Source of the DNA: Acorus gramineus | Taxonomy: Eukaryota; Streptophyta; Magnoliopsida; Acorales; Acoraceae | DNA: 64,000 nt | Assembly (NCBI GenBank): GCA_030737835.1 | Contig: CM060847.1 | Location: forward strand, 6,042,484-6,106,483 | Reading direction: 5' to 3' | Shown: positions 13,941-59,179 of the stretch, one piece after another | Position numbering within the stretch: the first letter of the stretch is position 1 | Layout of the letters: the number at the start of each line of letters is the position of its first letter | Notes under the pieces: generated by a model | Told to the model about the DNA's origin: nothing | The model's database searches: none | What the model saw: only the letters and a program-made list of their open reading frames with translations | Made by a program: the position numbers and the translations under genes

Positions 13941-14440
13941 GAAAGCTAGTTTGACATGGGAATAAGTGGTTGAGATAAGAGAAAAATTGGGTTAAATAAT
14001 TTGTTATCCCATATGGCATAAAAAAGGGGATAAAGCATGGACAATTGTCCACATTTTGAGATAAAAAAAAATGGGGATAGTTTGTTCTAGGTAAAATATA
14101 GAATAGACTTTGTCTCAATTTTTATTCCTATTTTGTAAAATTGGGATAACATTTATGACTACTCTTAAAAAAAAAAACAAAAACCAAAATGAAAAAAGAA
14201 TGTGTTCCACTAAACAACATTAATACCCCTATTAATAGGAAGGATAGATTTGATATTTTTTTAAAAAAATTTTAAGTTATCTCAAAAAATATTTGATCCA
14301 AATGCAAGATTGAGGATAAGAACACAAAAAAATGAAGATAATAAAAAACATTAACAAATGCAAATCTGGATAAAAATAGTGAATTTTTTATCCTCATAAT
14401 TTAGACTAACTTATCCTAAAAATTTACCAAACTAGGCCGA
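13941..14440. mobile_element. MITE with AGCTAGTTTG/CAAACTAGGC ends
   Basis: Inverted ends AAAGCTAGTTTGACATGGG and TTACCAAACTAGGCCGAAAG enclose AT-rich sequence with typical internal words (TTATCCCATAT, GGACAATTGTCC). It resembles the PIF-like MITE at 20502-20785 and the relic at 57555-57800. GAAAG flanks both sides and may be part of the target duplication, but the boundary is uncertain. Confidence 0.65.
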
Positions 14441-16808: not shown

Positions 16809-17697
16809 TAGGCCTGTCAACGGGTCTGGTCTAGACCCGGACCCGACCCGGACCTGATTACACGTGTAATATACCCGACCCGATTTGGACCCGACCTGGC
16901 GGACCCGAACAAACAAACAGGTCGGGTCCGAGTCCACCCCGCCCCGACCCGTTGGACCCGAGACCCGATTGTTTTATTAGAATATGCTCATATATTATAA
17001 GACCATTAGTATTAGTTGATACATAATTTTATTTCTTACTTAACTTATTTTTGTATCAAAAAATTCATAAATCATAATCATAATAAGCCCATAAATCATA
17101 AGTCATAATCATAATCATAACATTTTTTTGTTGCGTTGATGTTGCAACTTGCAAAAACTTGATTGTTTAATATGTAATAAACTTAGTAATGTATTGTCAT
17201 CGATTTGTTTTGAACAATTAACTTATTAGCTTTTGAATTTGTATGATTAATTAGTTTGTTGCATGATTTATGTTTATTATTTAAGTTAATATGTTAGTGT
17301 TTATTGTTTTGAATGTTGTTTAGGTTAATATTATTTTGAATGTTTCTATAATTAGTTATGTTTATTATTTAGGTCAATATTTTTTTTTATGTTAGTGATT
17401 ATTGTTTTGAATGTAGTTTAATAATTCATCTACTCCTTTTGAATTGTATAAAATTATATTAAAAAATAATCTCATTAATAATAATGTTTTATTACAAAAA
17501 ATTTTAAATAGAATGATAAGGCAAACAAATACATGAGCTCTTCTTGCTTTTTTTTTTTTTTTTACCAACCATTCGGGTCAGGTCCGGCGGGTCCTGGGTT
17601 GGACCCGGACCCGTCGGGTCTTGCCACGGGTCGGGTCCCGGCGGGTCCGGGTCCACCCAACCCGACCCCACCCGGACCCGACCCATTGACAGGCATA
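16809..17697. mobile_element. Non-autonomous hAT element A
   Basis: The ends TAGGCCTGTCAACGGGTC and GACCCATTGACAGGCATA are inverted. They are flanked by an 8-bp target duplication CCCATGCT/CCCATGCC (16801-16808, 17698-17705), as for hAT elements. Sub-terminal regions are dense in GGGTCGGGTCC-type words on opposite strands. There is no transposase. The left breakpoint of the large tandem duplication (17275) lies inside it, so only its right part is repeated at 26608-27027. Confidence 0.85.
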
Positions 17698-18260
17698 CCC
17701 ATGCCCATTACAAAATTTCATATATAACAAAAAAAGTATAAGTGTATAACACATGTCAATGGAAAAGAAATACACAAAAATAACTGAAAAATAAAAAAAA
17801 TCACAAGGCAGCAGATCCAACAGTTTCACCAACATTCAACATTATCATTTTCAGAATTCTTCACTTCACTTGCTTTCTCCTTGGATTGAGGGGCTTAGAT
17901 GCCTTTATTTTTTTATGATGTCTGCCCACTTCAAACCTTGATCGGAGAGTAAACAATTTTATTTTGTACCGTTTCATCACCAACTGTTCTACAATTATTA
18001 ATTTCTGTGGAAAAATTCATCAGAGATGCATGCAGTGAGTCCAAATAATTTTTATAATACTCAAGTTTCTTATGAGAAACAACAGCAGTCTCAACAACAT
18101 TCAAATGATGAACTGTTAATTACATTTACAAAATATAACTTATTTTCATATAAATGATGAACTGTCAATTACATTTGCTAAATATAATTTAGTTTCATAT
18201 TACATTTTACAAATGTGACTAACTATGATATAATATACCATATTCATTATAAAAAATATA

Positions 18261-18536
18261 GGGATTTTTATTTTTAAGTCCCCACAAACCATCATATTTA
18301 GTGATCGATCCCTCACTTCTTCGTATTTATGTTTTAATCCCCAGATTTAAATGATAGTTCATTTTTAGTTCCTGAGAGGGACCTATCCATAAATTATTTA
18401 ATTTTTTTTTAGTCCCTGAGAGGGACCTATCCATAAATTATCCTTTAAATCGGAGGACTAAAACTCAAATACGAAAAAGAAAGAAAAGATCAATCACTAA
18501 ATATAATGATTTGTAAGGACTTAAAAATAAAAATCC
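18261..18536. mobile_element. Foldback MITE, present in duplication copy 1 only
   Basis: GGGATTTTTATTTTTAAGTC at the left and GACTTAAAAATAAAAATCC at the right are inverted ends. The whole element is close to a palindrome. The empty site is preserved in copy 2 (AAAAAATCATATAC near 27584). Flanks suggest a target duplication of about 9-10 bp, AAAAATCATA, with one base lost on the left side. Confidence 0.85.
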
Positions 18537-19090
18537 AAAAATCATATACATATTAAATGCCATTTCATCTAGGATGTATGATCTGTATATAAGATTGCAC
18601 ATAACAGTATGAACATATTATATGATTCTCATTGCCTCCATAGACAGGAATCTTTTTCGTTAGAGAGCATAAAAAGAAAGGAAGAAAACAAGTAACGATT
18701 ATTTATGTGAACCGGCCACAATTTTATAAGAAAATTGTATGTCCAGGCATGTGCGCAGTTCCATCCGCAGTCCTTACGGCTCACCTATTGTTATTTTTTT
18801 AAAAAATAACCTCATCCATGTAAGTGCATATGTAGTATTATAAAAAGTAAAATATGCACTAAGAAGCACTAGTGTTTTTGAAGTGACAATCACAGTGTAT
18901 AAGGTAACTGAGGGGACCATTTTAAAACTGTAGACGAGATTGTAAAATAGATTGAGTGTATCTAACACACATTTTATGAAAGATTTCACAAGGGAATAAC
19001 GAGAGGGATATATAATATACTCAATCTCACCTCACCTCAAAGTTGAGTTCGTTCCAGGTGATCCATCACCTCCTGGACATAAAACTTTAA
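18537..19090. other. Non-genic part of duplicated unit (copy 1)
   Basis: Nothing beyond sequence shared with copy 2 (27585-28113). No gene recognised. Confidence 0.4.
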
Positions 19091-19532
19091 CCCCTGTTTG
19101 TTTTGAGAATAAACCCCCCAGATAATCTCGGATAAAAGATATAGGGTGTTTGTTTACCTCGGATAACCCTTGATAAAGTATGTCAGAATAAACTGGTATA
19201 AAGTGACATATTGATTCCAATCAATCCCTAAAATTAAAGTTATCATAGGTTATTCCACTCAAAGAATATGTGAACCCACTGTCAAATCAACTGTCATCCC
19301 TCTTATAAATACATGTCAAATCAACTATCATTATTTTTTCACCTTTTATAAATCTTTATCTATATTTTATTCACATTTTACCCAAACAACATAACATTTA
19401 TTCTTACATTTATCAAAGAGAATAATTCAAAATACAACGAAACACAAAATCACTTTATCCTTATTTATACTCACTTATGCTTGGATAAATGTATACCTAA
19501 GAATAAAACCTATCCCCGTTCCAAACGGGGGC
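19091..19532. mobile_element. PIF/Harbinger-like MITE (copy 1)
   Basis: The ends CCCCTGTTTGTTTTGAGAAT and CCCCGTTCCAAACGGGGGC are inverted, with TAA target duplications at 19088-19090 and 19533-19535. It is also present in copy 2 (28114-28554), so it predates the duplication. Confidence 0.7.
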
Positions 19533-19709
19533 TAATAGTTCCTGATTATGGACATGTGATTGCTTCGCTACATATTCATATATATAACAGCTTAATGAAG
19601 CAAAGGTACAACTGTATAGCTTAAGCTTAGATAGGTACTACTGTGTCGATCTTCATATAATATGTGCATGACACTACTGAAGATCAAACCTCAGAGATGC
19701 AGAGACCAA

Positions 19710-20018
19710 TTAAGCTAATGACCTGACCCTCGACACCCTCTGTCTTCTTCTAAACATCCGCTCCTCGAAGCTCTTTATGTCACATGGGATCTGAAGAACA
19801 CCGCCATTACAGAAACCAAAAGCCTCTTCTGACTTGCTTAGGAACTCTAAGAAGTTGCTGTCCCTAAGTGAGGCCACATGAACTATAAATCGCTTCGAAT
19901 CTTCGCCCGTGCCAACTGACACAGGGAAGTAGCCCTTAGGAACCACTGGAGGACCGATTCGAAGCTTGGAATGGCTTGTTAGGATGAGCCTACTTAGTTT
20001 GCTTGCAATCACTCCCAT
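19710..20018 (-). CDS. SAUR-family auxin-responsive protein, copy 1
   Basis: This is an intronless 102-aa protein on the minus strand. The core PPVVPKGYFPVSVG, then SKRFIVHVASLRDSNFLEFLSKSEEAFGF, then GGVLQIPCD is the SAUR domain, spanning about residues 24-82. A short basic N-terminus (MGVIASKLSRL) and an Arg-rich tail (RRRQRVSRVRSLA) flank it. Length fits the family (usually 80-150 aa). SAUR proteins are small auxin-induced regulators; several inhibit PP2C.D phosphatases and so raise plasma-membrane H+-ATPase activity and cell expansion. That role is family knowledge, not shown here. The start is the only ATG upstream of the domain. A product identical to this one is encoded at 28732-29040. 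Confidence 0.88.
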   Translation of the reverse strand: MGVIASKLSRLILTSHSKLRIGPPVVPKGYFPVSVGTGEDSKRFIVHVASLRDSNFLEFLSKSEEAFGFCNGGVLQIPCDIKSFEERMFRRRQRVSRVRSLA

Positions 20019-20501
20019 TGAAGAGAGCTTATTAGCTAAAACAGAGGTACAAAAAAATTGGTGGGTACAAATGGCCGTGCTTATTGATGTCCTCCTCCTC
20101 TACAGATTGATTGAATGTCGTATTATGGATGTGTTTTTATTATTGCAGGTGACATTGATCTGCCCCATACATTATTATACAAAAAATTTTGTTTTCTTAT
20201 ATTGTTTGAGTAGGAAGGGTTCAATGCCGTTGAGAGAAGGCTGATCAGGGATATTGATATTTTATTAAACAAAGTGAAGGGTTGTATTGTATAGCTGGTC
20301 TATTTAACTTTTCTCTCGTCATTGCGAGATATGGATCGATTTCCTGGAAACTTATTCTCTAGTCTTCTAGTCCTATTGGTACACGAAAGTGACAAAGAAA
20401 TGAGGTGCGATGAAGGAGCATTCCAGGAAAGCCTTCAAATTGGGAGGGCAACCACATCAACAGCAAATGAGCCTTCATATGTAATTGAATTAGAATATTT
20501 A
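20019..20501. other. SAUR upstream region (copy 1)
   Basis: This is the upstream (minus-strand promoter) side of the SAUR gene. I found no clear TGTCTC auxin-response element. A short plus-strand frame at 20322-20531 (69 codons) is unrecognised and probably chance. Confidence 0.35.
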
Positions 20502-20785
20502 AGGCTGGTTTGGCAAAGGGATAAGTGTTGAAATAAAAGAATAATTATGAGGATAAATAAGTGAGAGGATAGCTTATCCCCTTTTAGTATAAAAAATAAT
20601 TGAGATAAACTGCGGACAGTTGTTCCAATTTTGAAATGAAAATTGGGATATTTTGTTTCACTTAAATACTGAGATAATTATCCCAATTTTCATAAATATA
20701 AATATGAATAAAATTGATAGACTTTTTATCCCTTAAAATTAAGACAACTTATTCTCAAAATCTTATTTCCTTACCAAACTAGCCC
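20502..20785. mobile_element. PIF-like MITE (copy 1)
   Basis: The ends AGGCTGGTTTGGCAAAGGG and TTACCAAACTAGCCC are inverted and flanked by TTA (20499-20501 and 20786-20788). The matching element is at 29524-29803. Confidence 0.75.
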
Positions 20786-20900
20786 TTAAAGTTTACAGTT
20801 GAAATGTACCTCTAAATTTTTTTTATTGAGTCTGAGAAGTGATCCAACTGTTCTCATAGGGTCCAGGTGGAGACCAAAGATCTTGAGCGACTGATCTGGT

Positions 20901-21078
20901 AGAACAAGTCCCAATTATCTTGATACCCATCAAGATAAGAGTTTTCGTAACCTGGGCTACGTTTATAGTCTGTCTCTTTAAAGTGAAAGCGGAATTCATC
21001 CTTTTTTTTTTCCTTTCCATTCACTCGAATCTCTTCTGTTTCATCTATATCCTCCTTTTCTTCCCAGTAAGGGGAGAA
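20901..21078 (-). pseudogene. ycf1: Plastid ycf1-like fragment (NUPT), copy 1
   Basis: On the minus strand the translation [20 protein letters not shown] and, after a frameshift at an A-run, [18 protein letters not shown] and [11 protein letters not shown] resemble a stretch of the C-terminal half of chloroplast Ycf1 (TIC214). Length is about 55 codons. The following minus-strand sequence ([16 protein letters not shown]) is not recognised. The match rests on remembered Ycf1 sequence, so it is moderate. If right, this is a decayed nuclear insertion of plastid DNA that predates the tandem duplication. Confidence 0.45.
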
Positions 21079-23602
21079 GTTTTTAAATAATTTTCAGGGA
21101 GAATATCCAATGGTCCCGCTTAGATTTTTATTACTTTTATGAAGTTCAAACCAAGCTCTACCTTTTTTCAAAAAAAAATAAAAAAATAAAATAAAAATTG
21201 AAGTTCAAACCAAACCGTTGAAATCATAAAGACTTACCCAGATTTTGTGCTGAAAAACTACATTGATAAAATCACAAAAACAGGTGTGTGTGAGAGCGTG
21301 AAATGTGTGAAAGATGAGACTGTCTAGAGGAGATTTGTTAAATACTGTCGTATCACGTTTGGAGATGGTCTCCAAATTTTTGTTGTATATGAAGGTAAGA
21401 GGTGTTTTGAGTGTCTGAGTTGGCCTTTCCAGAGAAAGAAGAGGGTTTTCAGGCACTCTGAAACCAAAGCAATTCTAAAAAAAATTACAATTGAATTAAG
21501 CAAAGAAGAAAGACCATGTGGGTTGTCGTCACAAGGAAATTTTGGGTGCGAATGCCAAAGATACTTCCCTAAAGAGATAAGAATACAACTGCCCTGAAAT
21601 ATATATTAAGCCTAAAAAATGTTGTGTTGTGCACCGTATCTTCCACAGATATGGTAAAGGTCGGTTTCTCTAGATTTGACTTAATAAACTTATCTTGATC
21701 CAGGATGATTTGCAAAAAAACAAAAGGGGGGGGGGGGGGGGGGGGGGGGTGTGGTGTTTGGTTGTTCTGTGTTATAATATAAGAAATGATCCATAGAGGG
21801 GTTTAAAGCATGAAACCTCTTTACAATGCAAAAAATGTCAAAAAGAACAAGCTCCATAATAAACAAGCATTATAAGAAGAAAAGTTTACAACAATAATCT
21901 TATTCAATCAATATGAAGTCAATTGTTATATGACCAACAAATATGGTGAACATAGAGATTCATAGAAGATTGAACAAATATGGTGACCAACAACCAATCT
22001 GATGTCAACCCAGGAGTGGGGGAAATTATGGTTAAAATCAACTGACAAATAAGTAGTGGGGGAAAACGCTCTTGGAAGGAAATAGTGAAAAGTAAAAAAG
22101 GCTGGAGTTTAACATAATCACAAACCAGGGTTTTAAAAAATGCGCCAGACTTTTGTTCTTGAAACCAAACAGAGGTTTCAGTGAGAAAGTCTAGCTTTTA
22201 TTCGTTGAGTAAAAAACTGTTTATTCATATGTTCTCTTCATAGGTTGGCAAGCATGCTTAACAATTTGAAATTTTCTAATACTAGTACAATGACTTGCCA
22301 GAAATTATGTCCAACAAACAGAACCTGCTAACTTCTGTGAGTAAGTCATCCATACAAGATGTAGAAATGGTTTTAAGATCTTCTCTATGTAATTTTAGAT
22401 TGTTTGGAGTTTTCGAGACACACAAATCAGATTGTGTAAACAGCATACATCTCAAAAGCCTCAGTCCAGACTGTATATTAATGGCATATAAGAGTCCTTT
22501 GTAATGAATACTTGAATAGTAATAAGAATGAACAAAAAATGGGTATTAATGGCATAGAATGATTCTCAGTATTTTTCATAGAAATTATTGCATACACCAA
22601 ACTAAAAAAATGAGAAGAGCAGTTATTTGAAAATTGAAGTAAAAAAACAAACAATAGAAAATTCGATGTGGAACATTTTATAGTAATCATTCCTTCTCAA
22701 GTAAAAAATGTCAAGATACATGGGGAAGGGGATAGTCCATTCTAGGCTGTCTTATAATTCACTGCATTTTCCCTTTTTTTAATAACTTGTAAGGAAATCC
22801 CTTGTCTCCTTTTTTTCCAGGGGGTTCTTGGAATGATACACGGTGAACATATTAGATAAAATTCAGCACGTTGAAATAACAGTATGGGAATCCAGGATAT
22901 GCATAATCATTACAAGAAATAACCTTAATCGATTTTTGTAAATGACTAGAGGAACTCTGGCCTATTGAAGAGAGTGTGACCATGTGACAGCCCAAGCCTC
23001 ATCCATGAACCTAGGTAAACCCAAGAGCAATCAACACAACCAGACTTGTTTTCAAATATATGGCTGATCTTAGGAGAGCACATGTATGCAAACACTAATA
23101 AATTATTGGTCAAAGTTGCCCTTAGTGTGTTTGTCCCTTGGCGTGTAATTTTGCACTTCTAGGGCATGACATTCACACATTCAGAGCCGTATTAACTGCC
23201 TGTATGCATGGGATTTAAAAAAAAAATAAATTAGAAAGTCAAAGTTTCTTAGCAGAAATTTCTGGCAACTGTCGAAAGCACCAAAACAAACAGAGAAGCA
23301 AGCAAGAAAAATGTGGGTTCTTTACATTTTTAAATTTTTCATCCATTTGAGTAAAATATCTGGTAAGTGCACTCATGAGGAGATCTGAATAATAGTTGTT
23401 TACTCCTAGAGCTGATCATGCCTCAGAATGACACCTGGATTGCTAAGTACAACACATGAGATATATACAAGAACTTTCACAATTCACACAAAATAAAGTA
23501 TTAAAACCGTAATATCAAGATAATATGATGTTATAATGTTAACTATACTTACTATCATTGTATAGGCAAAATAGGCATAGAAGTGTAGAACTGACCAGGC
23601 AC
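21079..23602. other. Non-genic part of duplicated unit (copy 1)
   Basis: Nearly identical to 30099-32587. Short frames (for example 21205-21456 minus, 22295-22504 plus) are conserved between copies but match nothing I know; such conservation is expected from recent duplication alone. A 24-base G run (21726-21749) follows an A run. Confidence 0.4.
21726..21749. repeat. Poly(G) run of 24
   Basis: An uninterrupted G24 follows an A-rich run. The same site in copy 2 is G13 then A then a G4 run (about 30746-30763), so length has changed since duplication. Confidence 0.9.
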
Positions 23603-24370
23603 TAGGCCTGTCAACGGGTCGGGTCGGGGTGGACCCGGACCCGACCCGTGACAGGACCCGGCGGGTCCGGGGAAACGTGGACCCGGACCCGGACCCGTCG
23701 GGTCCGGGTCGGGTCCGGGTCCGACCCGACCCGCATGGTTGGGTAAAAAAAAAAAAAGAGAGAGAAGAGCCATGTATTTGTTTGCATTATCATTCTATTT
23801 GAAATTTTTTGTAATAAAACATTATGGTTAATGAGACCATGTTTGGATATAATTTTATACAATTCAAAAGAAGTAAATGAATTATTAAACAACATCCAAA
23901 ACAATAATCACTAACATAAAAAACATATTAACCTAAATAATAAACATAACTAACCTAAACAACATTCAAAACAATAAACACTAACATATTAACCTAAATA
24001 ATAAACATAAATCATGCAACAAACTAATTAATCATACAAATTCAAAAGCTAATAAGTTAATTGTCCAAAACAAACCGATTTATAGGCTTGTTATGATTAT
24101 GATTTATGATCTTGTAGATACAAAAATAAGTTAAGTAAGAAATAAAATTATATATCAACTAATACTAATGGTTTTATAATATATGAGCATATTTTAATAA
24201 AACAATCGGGTCTCGGGTCCAACGGGTCGGGGCGGGGTGGACCCGGACCTGACCCGTTTGTTTGTTTGGGTCCGCCGGGTCGGGTCCAAATCGGGTCGGG
24301 TATATTACACGTGTAATCGGGTCCGGGTCAGGACGGGTCCGGGTCTGGACCCGACCAGTTGACAGGCCTA
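23603..24370. mobile_element. Non-autonomous hAT element B, in copy 1 only
   Basis: The ends TAGGCCTGTCAACGGGTC and GTTGACAGGCCTA are inverted, flanked by CCAGGCAC/TCAGGCAC (23595-23602, 24371-24378; 8 bp, one mismatch). The interior matches element A (16809-17697) in inverse orientation, including the CAAACAAATACATGAGCTCTT-type segment and GGGTCC arrays. The empty site with a single copy of the target is intact in copy 2 (CTGACCAGGCACCCTCATG, about 32575). Confidence 0.92.
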
Positions 24371-25494
24371 TCAGGCACCCTCATGAAAAGAAAATCTCTT
24401 GAGAAGCAGAATAGAAAAGTCTGAGCCATGCACACAGTTCATTTCCGAATCTAATGCTCAAATGGTTAAAAATTGCAATGTGATAACTAAAATGAGCTGT
24501 CAGATCAAAAGAAATCAGGAGATATATGAAAATTGACACATGTTCACTGATATCCATGTGTGTATCTGTTAAATCTCACAAGGATGAGGGTCAAGAAGGA
24601 AACATGTGCAAATCCTTCATGCAACTACTCCAACTATACAAATCATTGACTAAATAAATGAAATGAAAAATCTTATAGGTGGGATAGCAATAGTCGTTTC
24701 AGAGCATTGAAAAAACTGCTTAAAATAATGCACCTAGAGATTTTTCAGAGAAACAAATGCACCTAGATATACACGTCTAACAAAAAGCCTTATGGTTGTC
24801 ATTATTCATAACAGATAACTAGTTCACTAGATGGTAATTAAAAGCGGAGATGGTAATATCATATACAGAATTTTGTGACTTTAAACTGTCATCACATCAC
24901 ATAAATCATCAGTTGATTGCACCAGCAGGTCCAGCACAACTTAGTGGATATTGAAGTGATGTTGAGAAAGTCATATTCACACCTTAAATGAGAAGAATAA
25001 CAATTTTTGACCATGCATCAACGTCAACTTCATATGGAAAAAATAATTTGTTCACTGCGCATTTTTCTCTCCTACAAAAGTTGAGCCTAGCAACCGGTTA
25101 AAAAATAACTATTTAATGAAGAGAGCAAATAGACCTGCAAATTGATAATTCATTTTCACCTTCAAAGGATGGCTTGATGTCTTGCAAAAAACTTCCTTTC
25201 CTAATCCAGTATTTACATATGATTTTCGACTGACCTCAATTCAACCCTGTTAGTCGCTCAATACAACTAATCAGCAATCAACATATTAATAGAAACCAAG
25301 TACAGACTATTGATCTGCTCACCGTGGAGAAGTATGGCTTTGTGGCAAAAACCCAGCATCAGGAGAACCAAATAAACATAAATAATAGTCCAATTTAGTA
25401 ACTACAATATCAGAGAGGCGAACACAGTCTTGTTTCCTGAATAACAAAATTCACATCTAAAATCAGGGAAAAGGGGTGAAAAATAAAAATAAAA
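24371..25494. other. Non-genic part of duplicated unit (copy 1)
   Basis: No gene recognised. Compared with copy 2, about 70 bp present at 33058-33127 is missing near 24850. Confidence 0.4.
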
Positions 25495-26220
25495 GTGATC
25501 CAAACATTAAGTACAATCCCATCCCTCCATTTTCCCTCCATCTCCAATCTCTCCTCCCCCCCCCCCCCCCCTGCAAGGCCCCAACCCAACCCACCAAGCG
25601 GCCGCGCCTTCCTTCCTCCACCCCCATCAGCACCTCCACCGCCTTCCGACACCACACCCAGCTCCACCCACACAGGTGGAAGGCATGGTGATGGCGACGG
25701 CGGGCGATGACAAGGATGGCACCGTGACAGCGACGGCCATTGCAACGGTGTGCATGGTGGCAGCGGACGAGGGAATGGATAGGAGGGAGAGAGAAGGAGA
25801 GAGAGAGAGTCTGTGTGCGTGGTTGGGCGGAAGTGGGCAAAAATTGAAGGGATGGGCTAAACAACGGGGAAAAATGGGTTTGGAGGACTGCCCTCTTTAT
25901 CATTTATCAAGCACAAACATTCAAACACAAAAAAACCCTCCACCTCCATCATCACCTCCACCTCCACTGCCCTCCCAACACCACCCTCCACGCCCCATCT
26001 CCCCTCCATCCCCAACCCCACAACCTGACTCGTGGTGGCGCCTCCACCACTCTCCAACTCCAACCCCACCGGTGGAGGGCACGGTGATGGCGGCGGTGGT
26101 GCGGCGGCGGCAACAATGGCTGCGGCGGCGGCAACAATGGCGGCGGCGGCAGCGGAGGAGGAGGGAATGGGATAAACAACGGATTTGGAACAGTAAAAGA
26201 AGGGGTTGGACCGCGCTATT
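25495..26220. repeat. GC-rich low-complexity block with two related halves (copy 1)
   Basis: A C/T-rich to G/A-rich block stands out from AT-rich surroundings. It consists of two related units. Each starts with CCAAACATT- or TCAAACAC-like sequence and CCCTCC runs, and ends GGGATGGGCTAAACAACGG or GGAATGGGATAAACAACGG. Imperfect inverted ends (GATCCAAAC... and ...GGATTTGGAAC) suggest a MITE-like origin. It opens long overlapping frames on both strands (188 codons plus, 146 minus), made of Pro/Ser/Arg repeats. No domain is visible. Confidence 0.6.
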
Positions 26221-26607
26221 GTACATCATTCATGAAACATAAACATAAAAAAAAAAAAAACGAGAGAGAGAGAGAAGTCTCGTGATTCACCGCATAAACC
26301 ATCGACGCTTTCGTCAGGTGGCGGAGTCACCGCGGCCGACGAAGGCCGTTCCTTCCCCGTGAAGATCAGCTTCGACAATTTCAGCCCCGGCCGTAATGAA
26401 GAGAATTGGAGCTTTTGAAGGTATTTATTAAACAGAGAATGGTAATTAGGGTTTGATTTTTTGGGGATTTCGGATCGGCTTCGGCAACGGATAGTTGGGG
26501 TGTCATTCACGTATGGATCGTGTGGAGGGCAAAAACCTTGTTCAATAGAGTTGCGACGCGTGTCAGATGCGGAGGACTTCCCAACGGTCTGGTTGCGTGC
26601 GCGTAAA

Positions 26608-27027
26608 TATTATTTAAGTTAATATGTTAGTGTTTATTGTTTTGAATGTTGTTTAGGTTAATATTATTTTGAATGTTTCTATAATTAGTTATGTTTATTA
26701 TTTAGGTCAATATATTTTTTTATGTTAGTGATTATTGTTTTGAATGTTGTTTAATAATTCATTTACTCCTTTTGAATTGTATAAAATTATATTAAAAAAT
26801 AGTCTCATTAATAATAATGTTTTATTACAAAAATTTTAAATAGAATGATAAGGCAAACAAATACATGAGCTCTTCTTGCCTTTTTTTTTTTTTTACCAAC
26901 CATTCGGGTCAGGTCCGGCGGGTCCGGGTTCCCGGACCCGCTGGGTCCTGGGTTGGACCCGGACCCACCAGGTCTTGCCACGGGTTGGGTCCAGGTCCAC
27001 CCGGACCCGACCCATTGACAGGCCTAC
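26608..27027. mobile_element. 3'-part of hAT element A, truncated by the duplication
   Basis: This is the right half of element A, including GGGTCC arrays and the GACAGGCCTA end followed by CCCATGCC. Its left half is absent because the duplication breakpoint fell inside the element. Confidence 0.85.
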
Positions 27028-28113
27028 CCATGCCCATTACAAAACTTCATATATAACAAAAAGGGTATAAGTGTATAACACATGTCGATGGAAAAGAAAT
27101 ACACAAAAATAACTGAAAAATAAAAAAAATCACAAGGCAGCAGATCCAGCAATTTCACCAACATTCAACATTATCATTTTCAGAATTCTTCACTTCACTT
27201 GCTTTCTCCTTGGATTGAGGACCTTAGATGCCTTCATTTTTTTATGATGTATGCCCACTTCAAATCTTGATCGGAGAGTAAACAACTGAATTTTGTACCG
27301 TTTCATCACCAACTGTTCTACAATTATTAATTTCTGTGGAAAAATTCATCAGAGATGCATGCAGTGAGTCCAAATAATTTTTATAATACTCAAGTTTCTT
27401 ATGAGAAACAACAGCAGTCTCAACAACATTCAAATGATGAACTGTTAATTACATTTACAAAATATAACTTATTTTCATATAAATGATGAACTGTCAATTA
27501 CATTTGCTAAATATAATTTAGTTTCATATTACATTTTACAAATGTGACTAACTATGATATAATATACCATATTCATTATAAAAAATCATATACATATTAA
27601 ATGCCATTTCATCTAGGATGTATGATCTGTATATAAGATTGCACATAACAGTATGAACATATTATATGATTCTCATTGTCTCCATAGACAGGAATCTTTT
27701 TCGTTAGAGAGCATAAAAAGAAAGGAAGAAAACAAGTAATGATTATTTATGTGAACCGGCCACGTCCAGGCATGTGCGCAGTTCCATCCGCAGTCCTTAC
27801 GGCTCACCTATTGTTATTTTTCAAAAAAATAACCTCATCCATGTAAGTGCATATGTAGTATTATAAAAAGTAAAATATGCACTAAGAAGCACTGGTGTTT
27901 TTGAAGTGACAATCACAGTGTATAAGGTAACTGAGGGGACCATTTTAAAACTGTAGACGAGATTGTAAAATAAATTGAGTGTATCTAACACACATTTTAT
28001 GAAAGATTTCACAAGGGAATAACGAGAGGGATATATAATATACTCAATCTCACCTCACCTCAAAGTTGAGTTCGTTCCAGGTGATCCATCACCTCCTGGA
28101 CATAAAACTTTAA
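27028..28113. other. Non-genic part of duplicated unit (copy 2)
   Basis: Matches 17698-19090 without the MITE at 18261-18536. No gene recognised. Confidence 0.4.
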
Positions 28114-28554
28114 CCCCTGTTTGTTTTGAGAATAAACCCCCCAGATAATCTCGGATAAAAGATATAGAGTGTTTGTTTACCTCAGATAACCCTTGATAAA
28201 GTATGTCAGAATAAACTGATATAAAGTGACATATTGATTCCAATCAATTCATGAAATTAAAGTTATCATAGGTTATTCCACTCAAAGAATATGTGAACCC
28301 ACTGCCAAATCAACTGTCATCCCTCTTATAAATACATGTCAAATCAACTATCATTATTTTTTCACCTTTTATAAATCTTTATCCATATTTTATTCACATT
28401 TTACCCAAACAACATAACATTTATTCTTACATTTATCAAAGAGAATAATTCAAAATACAACCAAACACAAAATCATTTTATCTTTATTTATACTCACTTA
28501 TGCTTGGATAAATGTATACCTAAGAATAAACCTATCCCCGTTCCAAACGGGGGC
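28114..28554. mobile_element. PIF/Harbinger-like MITE (copy 2)
   Basis: Same element as 19091-19532, with TAA at 28111-28113 and 28555-28557. Confidence 0.7.
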
Positions 28555-28731
28555 TAATAGTTCTTGATTATGGACATGTGATTGCTTCGCTACATATTCA
28601 TATATATAACAGCTTAATGAAGCAAAGGTACAACTGTATAGCTTAAGCTTAGATAGGTACTACTGTGTCGATCTTCATATAATATGTGCATGACACTACT
28701 GAAGATCAAACCTCAGAGATGCAGAGACCAA

Positions 28732-29040
28732 TTAAGCTAATGACCTGACCCTCGACACCCTCTGTCTTCTTCTAAACATCCGCTCCTCGAAGCTCTTTAT
28801 GTCACATGGGATCTGAAGAACACCACCATTACAGAAACCAAAAGCCTCTTCTGACTTGCTTAGGAACTCTAAGAAGTTGCTGTCCCTAAGTGAGGCCACA
28901 TGAACTATAAATCGCTTCGAATCTTCGCCCGTGCCAACTGACACAGGGAAGTAGCCCTTAGGAACCACTGGAGGACCGATTCGAAGCTTGGAATGGCTTG
29001 TTAGGATGAGCCTACTTAGTTTGCTTGCAATCACTCCCAT
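28732..29040 (-). CDS. SAUR-family auxin-responsive protein, copy 2
   Basis: The 102-aa product is identical to that of 19710-20018. I see a single, synonymous nucleotide difference in the frame (CCGCCATTAC against CCACCATTAC on the plus strand). The SAUR core (GYFPVSVG, RFIVHV, FLEFLSKSEEAFGF, LQIPCD) is intact and intronless. Its upstream DNA is also duplicated, so both copies have the same proximal promoter. The two copies differ in distal context: copy 1 has a hAT element about 3.6 kb upstream (23603-24370). Whether both are expressed cannot be told from sequence. Confidence 0.88.
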   Translation of the reverse strand: MGVIASKLSRLILTSHSKLRIGPPVVPKGYFPVSVGTGEDSKRFIVHVASLRDSNFLEFLSKSEEAFGFCNGGVLQIPCDIKSFEERMFRRRQRVSRVRSLA

Positions 29041-29523
29041 TGAAGAGAGCTTATTAGCTAAAACAGAGGTACAAAAAAATTGGTGGGTACAAATAGCCGT
29101 GCTTATTGATGTCCTCCTCCTCTACAGATTGATTGAATGTCGTATTATGGATGTGTTTTTATTATTGCAGGTGACATTGATCTGCCCCATACATTATTAT
29201 ACAAAAAATTTTGTTTTCTTATATTGTTTGAGTAGGAAGGGTTCAATGCCGTTGAGAGAAGGCTGATCAGGGATATTGATATTTTATTAAACAAAGTGAA
29301 GGGTTGTATTGTATAGCTGGTCTATTTAACTTTTCTCTCGTCATTGCGAGATATGGATCGATTTCCTGGAAACTTATTCTCTAGTCTTCTAGTCCTATTG
29401 GTACACGAAAGTGACAAAGAAATGAGGTGCGATGAAGGAGCATTCCAGGAAAGCCTTCAAATTGGGAGGGCAACCACATCAACAGCAAATGAGCCTTCAT
29501 ATGTAATTGAACTAGAATATTTA

Positions 29524-29803
29524 AGGCTGGTTTGGCAAAATGGTAAGTGTTGAAATAAAAGAATAATTATGAGGATAAGTGAGAGGATAGCTTATCCCTT
29601 TTTAGTATAAAAAATAATTGAGATAAACTGCGGACAGTTGTTCCGATTTTGAAATAAAAATGGGGATATTTTGTTCCATTTAAATACTGAGATAATTATT
29701 CCAATTTTGATAAATATAAATATAAACAAAATTAATAGGCTTTTTATCCCACAAAATTAAGACAACTTATCCTCAAAACCTTATTCTCTTGCCAAACTAG
29801 CCC
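29524..29803. mobile_element. PIF-like MITE (copy 2)
   Basis: Same element as 20502-20785, with TTA at 29521-29523 and 29804-29806. It shows more point differences from its partner than the flanks do. Confidence 0.75.
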
Positions 29804-29919
29804 TTAAAGTTCACAGTTGAAATGTACCTCTAAATTTTTTTTATTGAGTCTGAGAAGTGATCCAACTGTTCTCATAGGGTCCAGGTGGAGACCAAAGGTC
29901 TTGAGCGACTGATCTGGTA

Positions 29920-30098
29920 GAACAAGTCCCAACTATCTTGTTACCCATCAAGATAAGAGTTTTCATAACCTGGGCTATGTTAATAGTCTGTCTCTTTAAA
30001 TTGAAAGCGGAATTCATCCATTTTTTTTTTCCTTTTCCATTCACTCGAATCTCTTCTGTTTCATCTATATCCTCCTTTTCTTCCCAATAAGGGGAGAA
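29920..30098 (-). pseudogene. ycf1: Plastid ycf1-like fragment (NUPT), copy 2
   Basis: Duplicate of 20901-21078 with several substitutions. [20 protein letters not shown] is kept and the frame then shifts at the A-run. The same caution applies to the identification. Confidence 0.45.
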
Positions 30099-33000
30099 GT
30101 TTTTAAATAATTTTCAGGGAGAATATCCAATGGTCCCGCTTAGATTTTTGTTACTTTTATGAAGTTCAAACCAAGCTCTACCTTTTTTCAAAAAAAAAAA
30201 AAAAAAAAAATAAAAATTGAAGTTCAAACCAAACCGTTGAAATCATAAAGACTTACCCAGATTTTGTGCTGAAAAACTACATTGATAAAATCACAAAAAC
30301 AGGTGTGTGTGAGAGCGTGAAATGTGTGAAAGATGAGACTGTCTAGAGGAGATTTGTTAAATACTGTCGTATCACGTTTGGAGATGGTCTCCAAATTTTT
30401 GTTGTATATGAAGGTAAGAGGTGTTTTGAGTGTCTGAGTTGGCCTTTCCAGAGAAAGAAGAGGGTTTTCAGGCACTCTGAAACCAAAGCAATCCTAAAAA
30501 AAAATTACAATTGAATTAAGCAAAGAAGAAAGACCATGTGGGTTGTCGTCACAAGGAAATTTTGGGTGCGAATGCCAAAGATACTTCCCTAAAGAGATAA
30601 GAGTACAACTGCCCTGAAATATATATTAAGCCTAAAAAATGTTGTGTTGTGCACCGTATCTTCCACAGATATGGTGAAGGTCGGTTTCTCTAGATTTGAC
30701 TTAATAAACTTATCCTCATCCAGGATGATTTGCAAAAAAAAAAAAGGGGGGGGGGGGGAGGGGTTGTTCTGTTATAATATAAGAAATGATCCATAGAGGG
30801 GTTTAAAGCATGAAACCTCTTTACAATGCAAAAAATGTCAAAAAGAACAAGCTCCATAATAAACAAGCATTATAAGAAGAAAAGTTTACAACAATAATCT
30901 TATTCAATCAATATGAAGTCAATTGTTATATGACCAACAAATATGGTGAACATAGAGATTCATAGAAGATTGAACAAATATGGTGACCAACAACCAATCT
31001 GATGTCAACCCAGGAGTGGGGGAAATTATGGTTAAAATCAACTGACAAATAAGTAGTGGGGGAAAACGCTCTTGGAAGGAAATAGTGAAAAGTAAAAAAG
31101 GCTGGAGTTTAACATAATCACAAACCAGGGTTTTAAAAAATGCGCCAGACTTTTGTTCTTGAAACCAAACAGAGGTTTCAGTGAGAAAGTCTAGCTTTTA
31201 TTCGATGAGTAAAAAACTGTTTATTCATATGTTCTCTTCATAGGTTGGCAAGCATGCTTAACAATTTGAAATTTTCTAATACTAGTACAATGATTTGCCA
31301 GAAATTATGTCCAACAAACAGAACCTGCTAACTTCTGTGAGTAAGTCATCCATACAAGATGTAGAAATGGTTTTAAGATCTTCTCTATGTAATTTTAGAT
31401 TGTTTGGAGTTTTCGAGACACACAAATCAGATTGTGTAAACAGCATACATCTCAAAAGCCTCAGTCCAGACTGTATATTAATGGCATATAAGAGTCCTTT
31501 GTAATGAATACTTGAATAGTAATAAGAATGAACAAAAAATGGGTATTAATGGCATAGAATGATTCTCAGTATTTTTCATAGAAATTATTGCATACACCAA
31601 ACTAAAAAAATGAGAAGAGCAGTTATTTGAAAATTGAAGTAAAAAAACAAACCATAGAAAATTCGATGTGGAACATTTTATAGTAATCATTCCTTCTCAA
31701 GTAAAAAATGTCAAGATACATGGGGAAGGGGATAGTGCATTCTAGGCTGTCTTATAATTCACTGCATTTTCCCTTTTTTTAATAACTTGTAAGGAAATCC
31801 CTTGTCTCCTTTTTTTCAGGGGGTTCTTGGAATGATACACGGTGAACATATTAGATAAAATTCAGCACGTTGAAATAACAGTATGGGAATCCAGGATATG
31901 CATAATCATTACAAGAAATAACCTTAATCGATTTTTGTAAATGACTAGAGGAACTCTGGCCTATTGAAGAGAGTGTGACCATGTGACAGCCCAAGCCTCA
32001 TCCATGAACCTAGGTAAACCCAAGAGCAATCAACACAACCAGACTTGTTTTCAAATATATGGCTGATCTTAGGAGAGCACATGTATGCAAACACTAATAA
32101 ATTATTGGTCAAAGTTGTCCCTTGGCGTGTAATTTTGCACTTCTAGGGCATGACATTCACACATTCAGAGCCGTATTAACTGCTTGTATGCATGGGATTT
32201 AAAAAAAAAAAAAATTAGAAAGTCAAAGTTTCTTAGCAGAAATTTCTGGCAACTGTCGAAAGCACCAAAACAAACAGAGAAGCAAGCAAGAAAAATGTGG
32301 GTTCTTTACATTTTTAAATTTTTCATCCATTTGAGTAAAATATCTGGTAAGTGCACTCATGAGGAGATCTGAATAATAGTTGTTTACTCCTAGAGCTGAT
32401 CATGCCTCAGAATGACACCTGGATTGCTAAGTACAACACATGAGATATATACAAGAACTTTCACAATTCACACAAAATAAAGTATTAAAACCGTAATATC
32501 AAGATAATATGATGTTATAATGTTAACTATACTTACTATCATTGTATAGGCAAAATAGGCATAGAAGTGTAGAACTGACCAGGCACCCTCATGAAAAGAA
32601 AATCTCTTGAGAAGCAGAATAGAAAAGTCTGAGCCATGCACACAGTTCATTTCCGAATCTAATACTCAAATGGTTAAAAATTGCAATGCGATAACTAAAA
32701 TGAGCTGTCAGATCAAAAGAAATCAGGAGATATATGAAAATTGACACATGTTCACTGATATCCATGTGTGTATCTGTTAAATCTCACAAGGATGAGGGTC
32801 AAGAAGGAAACATGTGCAAATCCTTCATGCAACTACTCCAACTATACAAAACATTGACTAAATAAATGAAATGAAAAATCTTATAGGTGGGATAGCAATA
32901 GTCGTTTCAGAGCATTGAAAAAACTGCTTAAAATAATGCACCTAGAGATTTTTCAGAGAAACAAATGCACCTAGATATACACGTCTAACAAAAAGCCTTA

Positions 33001-33762
33001 TGGTTGTCATTATTCATAACAGATAACTAGTTCACTAGATGGTAATTAAAAGCGGAGCTGCCTCATTTGTCCAGTGTCACTTAAAAGTTGAAAGTCAGAG
33101 CATATTATTTAAACTTAAATCATGATCTAATATCATATACAGAATTTTGTGACTTTAAACTGTCATCACATCACATAAATCATCAGTTGATTGCACCAGC
33201 AGGTCCAGCACAACTTAGTGGATATTGAAGTGATGTTGAGAAAGTCATATTCACACCTTAAATGAGAAGAATAACAATTTTTGACCATGCATCAACGTCA
33301 ACTTCATATGGAAAAAATAATTTGTTCACTGCGCATTTTTCTCTCCTACAAAAGTTGAGCCTAGCAACTGGTTAAAAAATAACTATTTAATGAAGAGAGC
33401 AAATAGACCAAATTGATAATTCATTTTCACCTTCAAAGGATGGCTTGATGTCTTGCAAAAAACTTCCTTTCCTAATCCAGTATTTACATATGATTTTCGA
33501 CTGACCTCAATTCAACCCTGTTAGTCGCTCAATACAACTAATCAGCAATCAACATATTAATAGAAACCAAGTACAGACTATTCTGCTCACCGTGGAGAAG
33601 TATGGCTTTGTGGCAAAAACCCAGCATCAGGAGAACCAAATAAACATAAATAATAGCCCAATTTAGTAACTACAATATCAGAGAGGCTAACGCAGTCTTG
33701 TCTCCTGAATAACAAAATTCACATCTAAAATCAGGGAAAAGGGGTGAAAAATAAAAATAAAA
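30099..33762. other. Non-genic part of duplicated unit (copy 2)
   Basis: Matches 21079-25494 minus the hAT element and plus about 70 bp at 33058-33127. No gene recognised. Confidence 0.4.
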
Positions 33763-34440
33763 GTGATCCAAACATTAAGTACAATCCCATCCCTCCATCC
33801 CTCCATCTCCAATCTCTCCTCCCCCCCCCCCCCCCCTGCAAGGCCCCAACCCAACCCACCAAGCGGCCGCGCCTTCCTTCCTCCACCCCCATCAGCACCT
33901 CCACAGCCTTCCGACACCACACCCAGCTCCACCCGCACAGGTGGAAGGCATGGTGATGGCGACGGCGGGCGATGACAAGGATGGCACCGTGACAGCGACG
34001 GCCATTGCAACGGTGTGCATGGTGGCAGCGGACGAGGGAATGGATAGGAGGGAGAGAGAAGGAGAGAGAGAGAGTCTGTGTGCGTGGTTGGGCGGAAGTG
34101 GGCAAAAATTGAAGGGATGGGCTAAACAACGGGGAAAAACGGGTTTGGAGGACTGCCCTCTTTATCATTTATCAAGCACAAACATTCAAACACAAAAAAA
34201 CCCTCCACCTCCATCATCACCTCCACCTCCACTGCCCTCCCAACACCACCCTCCACGCCCCATCTCCCCTCCATCCCCTCAACCTGACTCGTGGTGGCGC
34301 CTCCACCACTCTCCAACTCCAACCCCACCGGTGGAGGGCACGGTGATGGCGGCGGTGGTGCGGCGGCGGCAACAATGGCGGCGGCGGCAGCGGAGGAGGA
34401 GGGAATGGGATAAACAACGGATTTGGAACAGTAAAAGAAG
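33763..34440. repeat. GC-rich low-complexity block (copy 2)
   Basis: Counterpart of 25495-26220. Length differences from copy 1 are 3, 6 and 21 bp, all multiples of three, inside CCATCC, CCCCAA and GGC/CAACAAT repeats. The plus-strand frame is therefore 179 instead of 188 codons. This fits period-3 slippage and does not by itself show coding. Confidence 0.6.
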
Positions 34441-34463
34441 GGGTTGGACCGCGCTATTGTACA

Positions 34464-34488
34464 TCATTCATGAAACATAAACATAAAA

Positions 34489-34519
<31 letters not shown>

Positions 34520-34898
34520 AGTCTCGTGATTTACCGCATAAACCATCGACGCTTTCGTCAGGTGGCGGAGTCACCGCGGCCGACGAAGGCCGTTCCTTCC
34601 CCGTGAAGATCCGCTTCGACAATTTCAGCCCCGGCCGTAATGAAGAGAATTGGAGCTTTTGAAGGTATTTATTAAACAGAGAATGGTAATTAGGGTTTGA
34701 TTTTTTGGGGATTTCGGATTGGCTTCGGCAACGGATAGTTGGGGTGTCATTCATGTATGGATCGTGTGGAGAGCAAAAACCTTGTCCAATAGAGTTGCGA
34801 CGCGTGTCAGACGCGGAGGACTTCCCAACGGTCTGGTTGCGTGCGCGTAAACCCTTGGATGTAAAATGGAGCGTCCTGATTGCCTTTCTTGGATACAA
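34464..34898 (-). CDS. Unrecognised 144-codon frame crossing the right duplication border
   Basis: A minus-strand frame (starts MYPRKAIRTLHF, includes YHSLFNKYLQKLQFSSLRPG and VTPPPDESVDG) begins in unique DNA right of the border and runs into the duplicated unit. In copy 1 only the last 94 codons remain (26226-26510), because the border removed the first part. The upstream side (plus 34900-34920) has TTAACAG, which on the minus strand could be a splice acceptor. No known family; it may be an exon of a lost gene or chance. Confidence 0.2.
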
Positions 34899-35142
34899 AA
34901 AGTCTGTTAATGTAAAAAATGCAATTAGTACAAAATAATAAATGCTGAATCTTTGTGTAATGGTGCCCGATCAGCTGTAAGATTGTTGCGTTTCAACAAA
35001 ATAAATAAAGATTTACAAAATAAATAAAGATTTACAAAAATATTTTCAAAAAGAAGTATATGGATAGTTTGGAATGTATATAAGATTTTTTTTTTTGTAT
35101 GAGTTTGTTTATGAGAATTTTATCTTTATTCAATGAATTTAT
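34852..35142. other. Unique DNA right of the tandem duplication
   Basis: Contains a short direct repeat (AAATAAATAAAGATTTACAAA, twice near 35000-35040). No gene seen. Confidence 0.4.
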
Positions 35143-36440: not shown

Positions 36441-37920
36441 ACCCACAAACTCAACAGGATAGACTTGTAACAGAATAATTTCTATTAGGCCCGATTTGTT
36501 TTGTTTCTTGATACATCTTTCTTATATCAAGGAGCATGGGTTTTTTTCTTGGTTTTTATACGTATTTGGGCATTCGTTTTAATAATATTAAAATGATCAT
36601 CTACCATTTTTTTTTAAAAAAAAAACCCTTTCAAAATTAATAAATATTTTGTATCGATATATTCACATCCAATACTATATTTTAGTTTTATCGCTTAACA
36701 AGTTTTATATATCTTTTTGTAATTTGACAAATTTGATCATAAACGGAAAAATAGGATAAAGAACGGATAATTTTAGTATTGATGTTCAAAATATGAATAT
36801 CTTTTTCGAGATAAATAGTTGAAAATTTATATTCTGTTTTCTCTATGTTTTATAAGATATCAGAAAATTGATTGGTCATGTCAGTTCTCTTCTTACCTAT
36901 AAAAAAAAAAGAAAAAAGAGGGGGGGACCCAAACCCATTCTTCCCGCTTAAAAAAATAGCCACGAATGAGTTCTATCCACGTATCATATCTGATGTTCAA
37001 TGTTTTATTACCTCATCTCCATTCTATTCTGTCCCATGGTTTTGACTTTTGATAGATAAGAATTGATGTTTATTTAATACTCCAAATTATCATGCTTGTT
37101 TTATTTGATCATTATATCTCGTCATGAATGAGTTCATAGGATCTCATAACAGAGGGACCTCTGTAGCTGGTGGCTGAGTTGAATATGTTATTTTTATCTG
37201 TGTACCCCTAAATCGACAGAAGAACATTTAATTTTCATCTTTGTATAACTTGATATTTGAAAACAATGTCTCCAAAACCAATTACCATAAAAAGGTAAGG
37301 AAAAAAATGAATAAACATAGAGAAAGGGTGTGCTTACATCTCTTGTTGGAGTCAAAGTCAAAACCACCTTTTCTTAATTTGAATCTTCGAGCAACAAAAT
37401 AAGATGATGCTTGCAAATGAATCCCAGCTGTCTCACCGGAATTCAAGATAAAAACATAAAAACAAAGATAACAAAATAAATAACCAAATATCAAACCAGA
37501 ATAAAAGTATGATCTTTCTATCCCTCAAAATTAGGTTATCTTAGCTTTGGCACTATTAAAGGTCAAAAAGTTCTTCATGAAAGGGAAAGGTTCGCAACTT
37601 GGCACGGTGCGCCAGGCCCTTTTTCGTCTTCTGTGGATCGCTTTCATCGGTAAAAAACGGTAAATAAACTCCCAAAAATGAGGATCTCCACATAAGTGCT
37701 GTTATACACCATCCATTTTCAACCTGATTATGTTTATGAAAAATTAATGTTGTAATAATTTTTTATATTTTTTTTTATAAATGAATCCATACAATTTATT
37801 AAAATATATATTTAAATATACTAATATATTAAAATTAGAGTTGAAAATGAGGCTGCATTTAATATTATCCTGTACTTAAAAACCGTCCGCAGTTTTAGCG
37901 ATCCGTTGTTTGTTTAGCGT
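36441..37920. other. Intergenic stretch upstream of the J-domain gene
   Basis: No gene recognised. AT-rich with A/T homopolymers. Confidence 0.4.
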
Positions 37921-44690: not shown

Positions 44691-44823
44691 CCCGAACCTG
44701 GAATCGAAGAACTTGAACAAATTGAAACCCATCGTATCGTTTTTCAGTATTCTCCTTTACGTTACGATATCGTAAGAGAGAATCAATAGATCGATCGAGA
44801 ACACACACACACACACTCACAAA

Positions 44824-45891
44824 ATGGGACTTTTAGAGAAGCTGTGGGACGAAACGGTGGCCGGACCCATCCCCGACGCGGGCCTAGGCAGGCTCCGGAG
44901 GACCACCACCACCACCGTCCGATCCCCGTCCGAACCTCCGAAGCCCATCGGCATCCCCATCACCCGGAGCATCACCATCATCCGCCGTGGCGGCTGCGCC
45001 AGCTGCATCTCTGGCGAGATCGGGTCCGGCCCGACCCCGGCCTCCCCTGTCGCACCCGAGTCACCACTCACACGTGCGAACTGTACCTGAAATTTTTTTC
45101 ATATTAACACATGCTCATGAAATATCCATCCATCAAAATACATTAAAATTATTGAAAGAAGTGATTGGTTGGTTGTTGTGTACAGCGGCGACGCCGAGAA
45201 GGGGCAGGAGAACGCCGGCGGCAGTGGCGGCGGAGCCCAGGACCCCCAACGCTTATGATTGGTACGTCCTTTAATTAATTTTATGGGTCTCTGGGTTTGC
45301 ACCATTAGAATTTGTTTGCATGTTTTTTTTTAAAAAAACTTGTATGAGAAACCAAGATCCATTTAAATTACACATGCATCCCATAATTTGGATGTTATCT
45401 TTATAAAACTCATATTTATTTACATCATTTTCATATTAAGAGACGAATACGAGAAAAAAAAAGATGTGATTCAATTAGAAAATTGTGTTTCACCACATAG
45501 ACTCAATTAAATTTGAGGAGCATGCAAATTGGAGGTACATACAAATATATCATGAGTAAGGTGAAAGGGGCATAAATAGAGCACTTCACAGATAAACTGT
45601 TTTATTATACTTGTGAGATTTATGGAAAAAATACTTCATTTTGTTGTTTTATATTTTTACTATATATTGGTTTTGATTTATTATTTGTTGTTTTAGAAAT
45701 GATTGGATACTTGAGGTTAATGAGATGTCTATTATTTGAATGATTGTGAGGATTTAATATAAATAAATATTGAAGATAATTAATGCAATATTAGTTTTAT
45801 TTTTCTTCATGGATGGATTAATATTAGATGGGTTAAATATTTGTTTGGTGTTGAATTTTGCAGGTTGGTCATAAGTGCTTTGGACCGATAG
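44824..45891 (+). CDS. DRM1/ARP-type dormancy-associated, auxin-repressed protein
   Basis: Exons 44824-45073, 45186-45261 and 45864-45891 join in frame, with GT-AG introns, into 117 aa. The N-terminus MGLLEKLWDETVAGPIPDAG is the hallmark of dormancy-associated/auxin-repressed proteins. The middle is Pro/Ser/Thr-rich with TPATPRRGRRTP. The end YDWLVISALDR, with its last residues coded by a tiny third exon, matches the longer DRM1 homologues (At1g54070-like, ending WIVINALDR). Family length is about 110-130 aa. Transcripts of the family rise in dormant buds and non-growing tissue and fall with auxin or sucrose; the molecular function is unknown and the protein is predicted to be disordered. The start is preceded by an (AC)n leader. 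Confidence 0.9.
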
Positions 45892-52489: not shown

Positions 52490-53225
52490 AAAAATGCTTA
52501 TACCCCATGAACATTCGCTAATATCCGTATCCATACAACCCCCTTAAAGTAAAAAAAAAAAAAAAACACCACTAACTCTAAGTTAAGTTATCGTCAAATT
52601 TAAAAAGAATATTCGTGAAATATTTCATTACTTAGCATCACCCTAAATACATATATAACTCACTGTAAGATTGCAAATATACATATCGACCCCTCATTTT
52701 TCTAAATATCCATATAATCCCTCAAATTACGCGTTTAATTCACATCACCCCCTATGGTTATTCAATTAAAATTTGTGTGTAATTAACCTGACAATATATA
52801 ATAATTTATTCTTAACATATTGAAGAAGAAACACAATGAGATATTCACAAACTTCACATCACCCCCTATCGTTATTCAATTAAAATTTGTGTGTAATTAA
52901 CCTGATAATATATAATAATTTATTCTTAACATATTGAAGAAGAAACACAATGAGATATTCACATCACCCCCTATCGTTATTCAATTAAAATTTGTGTGTA
53001 ATTAACCTGATAATATATAATAATTTATTCTTAACATATTGAAGAAAAAACACAATGAGATATTCACTTAATTCACATCACCCCCTATCGTTATTCAATT
53101 AAAATTTGTGTGTAATTAACCTGATAATATATAATAATTTATTCTTAACATACTGAAGAAGAAACACAATAAGATATTCACAAACTTCAAGGGGGTTTAT
53201 ATGCATTTTTCTCTTAGATACGAGT
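52490..53225. mobile_element. Mutator-like MITE carrying a tandem array
   Basis: The ends (GGAAAAAATGCTTATACCCC, ATCCATACAACCCCCT and AGGGGGTTTATATGCATTTT) resemble the AACCCCCTG-type elements at 11639 and 58659. No clean target duplication was found. Four direct repeats of about 107-115 bp fill the centre (52741-53190). Confidence 0.55.
52741..53190. repeat. Four-unit tandem array, about 107-115 bp per unit
   Basis: Each unit starts CACATCACCCCCTATSGTTA and ends GAAACACAATRAGATATTCA. Starts are near 52743, 52855, 52963 and 53075. Units differ at only a few bases, so amplification is recent relative to the element. Confidence 0.9.
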
Positions 53226-57936: not shown

Positions 57937-58210
57937 GGTTTTTTTATTTTTAAGTCCCCATAAACTATATGATTTAGTAATTGATTCATCACTTCTTCAT
58001 ATTTCGGTTTAAGTCCCTAGATTTAAAGGATATGCTCCTTTTAGTCTCTTCCACGGACTAAAAAAAAATCAAATAATTTAGGGATAAGTCTCTTCGAGGG
58101 ACTAATAAAACACATACCCCTTAAATCTAGGGACTTAAATAGAAATATAAACAAGTGATGGATCGATCACTAAATCATATAGTTTACAGGAACCTAAAAA
58201 TAAAAAAAAC
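57937..58210. mobile_element. Foldback MITE, cluster member 1
   Basis: The left end TTTTTATTTTTAAGTCCCC and right end GAACCTAAAAATAAAAAA are inverted. The internal words TAGTAATTGATTCATCACTT and CACTAAATCATATAGTTTAC match the family at 18261. Confidence 0.7.
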
Positions 58211-58348: not shown

Positions 58349-58633
58349 AAAAAACTTGGGTTTTTTAGTTTTCAGTCCATGTAAACATATCTATTTAGAG
58401 ATGTATCTATCACTTCTTCATATTTTGGTTTTAGTCCCCAAATTTAAATGATATGGACTTTTTTAGTTCCTCCCAAGGACTAAAAACAAAATCAAATAAT
58501 TTAAAGATAGGTCCCTCCTATGGACTAAAAAGAAACATATTATTTAAATCTAGTAATGAAAACTAAAATATGAAGAATTGAGGGATCGATCAATAAATCT
58601 TATGATTTTTGAGAAATTAAAAATAAAAATCCC
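58349..58633. mobile_element. Foldback MITE, cluster member 2
   Basis: GGGTTTTTTAGTTTTCAGTC and GAAATTAAAAATAAAAATCC are the inverted ends. The centre has GGGACCT-like stems (GATAGGTCCCTCC). Confidence 0.7.
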
Positions 58634-58658
58634 AAAAAACTTTTATTTATATTAAAAA

Positions 58659-59166: not shown

Positions 59167-59179
59167 TATTAAAAAATAA

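Follow-up and report, generated by a model that had tools for sequence, protein, structure and literature searches.

How did a SAUR gene of Acorus gramineus come to stand in two copies about 9 kb apart on one contig, and by what kind of join were the copies brought together? We addressed this in a stretch of 64,000 nucleotides (hereafter the window; contig CM060847.1, or C1, positions 6042484-6106483 of assembly GCA_030737835.1), taken from an assembly of 398.6 Mb in 137 contigs in which C1 measures 32.95 Mb. The locus is very probably a real direct tandem segmental duplication, in which a segment carrying one SAUR gene was joined without homology. Its structure and, to some extent, the succession of events can be read from the letters themselves, from which we infer a likely repair pathway.

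BLAST of the window against itself and a global alignment of copy A against copy B delimited the two units and the junction between them:

17275..26607, forward strand, copy A of the duplicated unit, 9333 bp (self-BLAST and global alignment)
26608..34851, forward strand, copy B of the duplicated unit, 8244 bp (self-BLAST and global alignment)
26607..26608, no strand, junction of the copies, flush, with no base in common on the left or right

The direct self-matches terminate exactly at 17275/26608 and 26607/34851, and the copies are adjacent, colinear, in the same orientation and sharp at their ends, as copies in a direct tandem segmental duplication should be. Two adjacent copies of 9.3 and 8.2 kb with exact breakpoints had been proposed in a preliminary description of this DNA, and both the self-BLAST ends and the global alignment bear this out. 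Aligned end to end, 17275-26607 and 26608-34851 gave 8145 columns. The 114 substitutions include 82 transitions, and among the 25 indels those of 285, 776 and 66 bp stand out as large. The same description called the copies nearly identical, which holds for the overall identity of 98.6% but conceals a divergence that is very uneven along the unit. A MAFFT count of 148 substitutions in 8167 columns was dropped because two indels (23 bp and 25 bp) in a GGGTC-rich stretch explain positions 17595-17667 better than the 32 substitutions that MAFFT put there; a micro-inversion of these positions was rejected in favor of the same two indels.

The left breakpoint lies inside a transposable element, half of which recurs at the junction:

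16809..17697, forward strand, E1, a hAT-like non-autonomous element of 889 bp with inverted ends, 7 of 8 flanking bases matching
26608..27026, forward strand, right half of E1 at the junction, in copy B (self-BLAST)

Within E1, 889 bases long, the cut falls at base 467 (window position 17275). Of the element, just the right half is found at the junction, where it abuts unrelated sequence. We take E1 for a hAT element from its end features and 8-bp flank. Its family is high-copy, and the match spans the cut point in all six family loci fetched from outside the window (L003-L008). E1 is older than the duplication, since its right half together with its right flank occurs in both copies. A left break inside a high-copy hAT-like element is what non-allelic homologous recombination (NAHR) could produce, that is, unequal crossing-over between transposon copies at both ends followed by trimming of the junction by deletion. 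Such a scheme requires long direct repeats at both unit ends, and it fails at the right one, a G+C-richer stretch (51% over the last 301 bases) that holds no second element: E1 compared with 34352-64000 gave only weak matches of 17-52 bp (E 0.002-0.006). Nor did a comparison of the flanks (E up to 0.01) reveal a long direct repeat linking the two ends; it gave one 95-column match of 75% identity pairing 14309-14401 with 37441-37532, and because this pair lies 2.6-2.9 kb outside the ends, recombination there would not yield the observed unit. With a junction of E1's right half and unrelated sequence only, and with the extra deletion that the scheme demands, we regard NAHR as very improbable. 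The hAT-like element at the left break also calls to mind alternative transposition of hAT ends, as in maize Ac/fAc, by which tandem direct duplications of 8 kb to 5.3 Mb arise according to the available part of PMC4270019. The present locus resembles products of reversed Ac ends transposition in being a direct duplication adjoining a hAT-like element. The maize duplications, however, have element ends and 8-bp target duplications at their breakpoints (same partial source), whereas here the break falls at an internal base of E1 and the junction shows neither an element end nor a target duplication, which leaves this origin scarcely credible.

A mismatch at the very first position separates the bases preceding 17275 from those preceding 26608, and the same holds for the bases following 26607 and 34851; the junction has 0 bp of microhomology and no filler, and a junction base legible at 26607/26608 without microhomology, as first described, is thus confirmed. 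A 121-base junction query, for which 40 of 992 candidates were scored, found a full-length match at one place in the assembly, inside C1. Among the same scored candidates, 38 other places outside the window match the element part of the query. One of these, at 92%, extends 12 bases past the element, an extension that we take for probable chance.

Three large differences between the copies allow later events to be placed in order:

23596..24371, reverse strand, E2, a hAT-like insertion of 776 bp in copy A only, inverted relative to E1, CAGGCAC on both sides
18252..18536, no strand, MITE-like stretch of 285 bp, in copy A and absent from copy B, AAAAAT on both sides (MITE, miniature inverted-repeat transposable element)
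33061..33126, no strand, stretch of 66 bp, in copy B and lost from copy A

The ordering draws on a distant relative on contig C9 (about 7.1559-7.1585 Mb; L029-L031), which is 64-74% identical to window positions 21398-24852 and to their twin in copy B; within the 30 kb taken around it, nothing matches the SAUR at an E value below 3. Both copy B and the C9 relative have the site of E2 unoccupied, demonstrating that E2 entered copy A after the duplication, and about the first 38 of the 66 bp are matched in C9, from which it follows that copy A lost this stretch. The 285-bp difference may be read either as an insertion with an imperfect target repeat or as a deletion in copy B between the AAAAAT repeats. 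Over the part covered by C9, 12 of the 22 differences between the copies could be polarised, 5 being derived in A and 7 in B, as would be expected for two lineages since their split.

The MITE-like family to which the 285-bp stretch belongs has three copies close together at 57941-58206, 58350-58639 and 59171-59459, which match one another in direct orientation and lie ahead of the frames of a respiratory-burst NADPH oxidase (RBOH) gene that starts from about 60.5 kb of the window. An 1152-bp fragment of the unit (21787-22938 / 30787-31937) also occurs on contigs C67 (L032, 5914-7098) and C32 (L033, 5363-6551) with an identity of about 95-96%. A perfect direct repeat of 121 bp encloses the C32 copy, 59 bp being detectable for C67, and a few bases are shared where the fragment meets its surroundings; the arrangement has the look of filler DNA inserted together with a long duplication of its target.

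Divergence between the copies was broken down by segment, one of which is a MITE present in both:

20503..20794, no strand, MITE in copy A, of a high-copy family, 8.0% divergent from its twin in copy B
29525..29812, no strand, the same MITE in copy B

Substitutions numbered 12 in 403 positions of the E1 half (2.98%), 35 in 2491 over 17705-20502 (1.41%), 23 in 288 in the MITE (7.99%) and 44 in 4963 over 20795-26607 (0.89%). Outside both elements (the E1 half and the MITE) the figure is 79/7454, or 1.06%, corresponding to 0.76 million years (My) at 7e-9 substitutions per site and year and to 2.1 My at 2.5e-9; with all substitutions counted (K = 0.0142), four rates gave 0.54-2.83 My. All of these rates are assumed clock rates, and on such a clock the duplication is roughly one or two million years old. 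The label 'recent' suits the divergence of about 1% outside the two elements but must accommodate one transposon insertion and a 66-bp loss that have taken place since.

Each copy carries one SAUR gene, on the reverse strand in both:

19710..20018, reverse strand, SAUR gene of copy A, 102 amino acids, PF02519, Auxin_inducible, at 54 bits against a curated Pfam cut-off of 26.3
28732..29040, reverse strand, SAUR gene of copy B, 102 amino acids, the same protein, PF02519 at 54 bits against a cut-off of 26.3

Both frames are intact and differ at one nucleotide, at 19803 in A and 28825 in B, a change that must be synonymous since the 102-residue products are identical, as had been claimed. This identity is no evidence of selection, because the one change seen compares with 3.3 expected from the rest of the unit, a difference short of significance (P(<=1) = 0.16). 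Within 470 bp upstream of the start codon there is one substitution, at 20073. A protein search of the genome with the SAUR product returned 36 matches, two at 100% (the pair itself) and 34 at 31-47%, the best-scoring match beyond the pair being 41% identical; the pair is therefore a doubled single gene rather than part of an array of close copies. When 31 of the 33 frames of at least 62 amino acids in 26608-34970 were scanned against Pfam for a second gene in the unit, SAUR alone reached its cut-off and five weak matches stayed below theirs.

The MITE, at about 7.5 times the divergence found outside both elements, stands apart from the rest of the unit. Of 1763 candidates for its family, 40 were scored; these included 38 places elsewhere as well as one neighbouring copy. 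Polarised by the majority of 28 fetched copies, 22 of its 23 differences could be assigned (one of these 22 on a tie), 8 as derived in A and 14 in B. C>T or G>A accounts for fourteen of the 22 and the opposite direction for four, a bias that majority polarisation may overstate. Ectopic gene conversion was considered and found no donor among the 28 fetched family copies (40 of 1763 candidates scored), none of which carries the run of A- or B-specific letters. The pattern fits deamination of methylated cytosine in both copies. We advance with somewhat less than even confidence that, from the duplication onward, the MITE has accumulated changes at about 7.5 times the pace of the unit outside the two elements, that it has done so separately in A and in B, and that C>T/G>A changes have predominated.

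From these results we propose that a segment of about 8.3-8.6 kb, with one SAUR gene and its upstream region, would have been doubled when an end at the right breakpoint (its base is today found at both 26607 and 34851) became connected, with no homology involved, to a break within E1 at base 17275; end joining between homologues or sister chromatids is the most likely route. The copies would afterwards have drifted to about 1% outside the two elements, copy A gaining the 776-bp hAT-like element and losing 66 bp, and the MITE in both would have evolved at a much higher rate, chiefly through C>T/G>A, in keeping with DNA that is presumably methylated.

Several considerations weigh against this account. 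A flush junction is not diagnostic, zero microhomology being the commonest outcome when window positions are joined at random: of 200,000 simulated joins 52.9% had no microhomology and 28.3% had one base, so its absence alone says little about the repair pathway. The preliminary description had favored end joining over unequal crossing-over; the cut at base 467 of E1 and the lack of a long linking repeat sustain that preference, but the flush join, on which it drew, carries little weight by itself. As it now stands, the junction shows nothing that points to a homology-based join, yet does not prove one end-joining pathway, and the original join may have been removed by a later deletion at the junction. 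Substitution density is non-uniform even outside both elements (none of 3000 shuffles reached the observed dispersion, and 4 of 3000 did so once a further 86-bp cluster was left out), and possible conversion between A and B or local rate differences would blur the date. Finally, one rival keeps weight, and it alone: a false (heterotype) duplication, in which the assembler laid two alleles of one heterozygous locus end to end. Alleles would likewise show changes in both lineages, and divergence of about 1-1.4% with transposon presence and absence would also be typical of alleles in an outcrossing plant. In the available part of PMC9516828, the share of false duplication located on one and the same scaffold was 7-24% for three older animal assemblies, and it accounted for most of the residue (22.2/24.1, 4.8/5.8 and 3.4/5.6 Mb) in newer assemblies built from long reads for those species; wrong gap filling, by the same partial source, may join copies without N. 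The window, however, contains no N, the join runs base to base within the 32.95-Mb contig, and an overlap-based assembly would presumably need common sequence at the join, where there is none. We consider a false duplication unlikely and a real tandem duplication much the better description of the locus.

Beyond the unit, a frame at 44776-45087 (about 44.8 kb) matched PF05564 (Auxin_repressed) at 36.2 bits against a cut-off of 25, one of 10 scanned from the 33 frames of at least 75 amino acids in 35000-60500. A tandem array at 52738-53189 is built of some four units, each 105-114 bp long, with about 92% matching. Scanning the window for Rfam families and for tRNAs gave no hits.

The case is an ordinary one, a known mode of plant gene doubling, because the origins of rice copy-number variants (CNVs) and the growth of SAUR families by duplication are already known. 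For rice, the accessible portion of PMC4812662 assigns 4872 CNVs (52.98%) to non-homologous recombination and 44 (0.48%) to NAHR. Plant tandem CNVs made by non-homologous repair resemble the present locus in their flush or nearly flush junction, the lack of a long end repeat and the copying of an intact gene; nothing essential differs, a halved hAT-like element being the particular feature here. SAUR families expand by tandem and segmental duplication, and cotton SAUR genes form tandem arrays of closely related copies (PMC5654091, in the part available), whereas the gene described here was single, without a close relative (41%), and a distance of about 9 kb separates its two copies inside a single long duplicated segment.

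What the locus offers is a worked case, readable to the base, whose unit ends exclude recombination between long repeats and in which some of the subsequent events can be put in order with the help of a distant relative elsewhere in the genome. The fast-changing MITE is a warning that dating a duplicate from one divergence figure can mislead. If its acceleration is true, the pair would be a small, dated natural experiment on transposon-targeted mutation beside an almost unchanged gene and near upstream region. For the plant, the likely effect is possession of two intact copies of a formerly single SAUR gene, whose first 470 bp upstream show one base difference.
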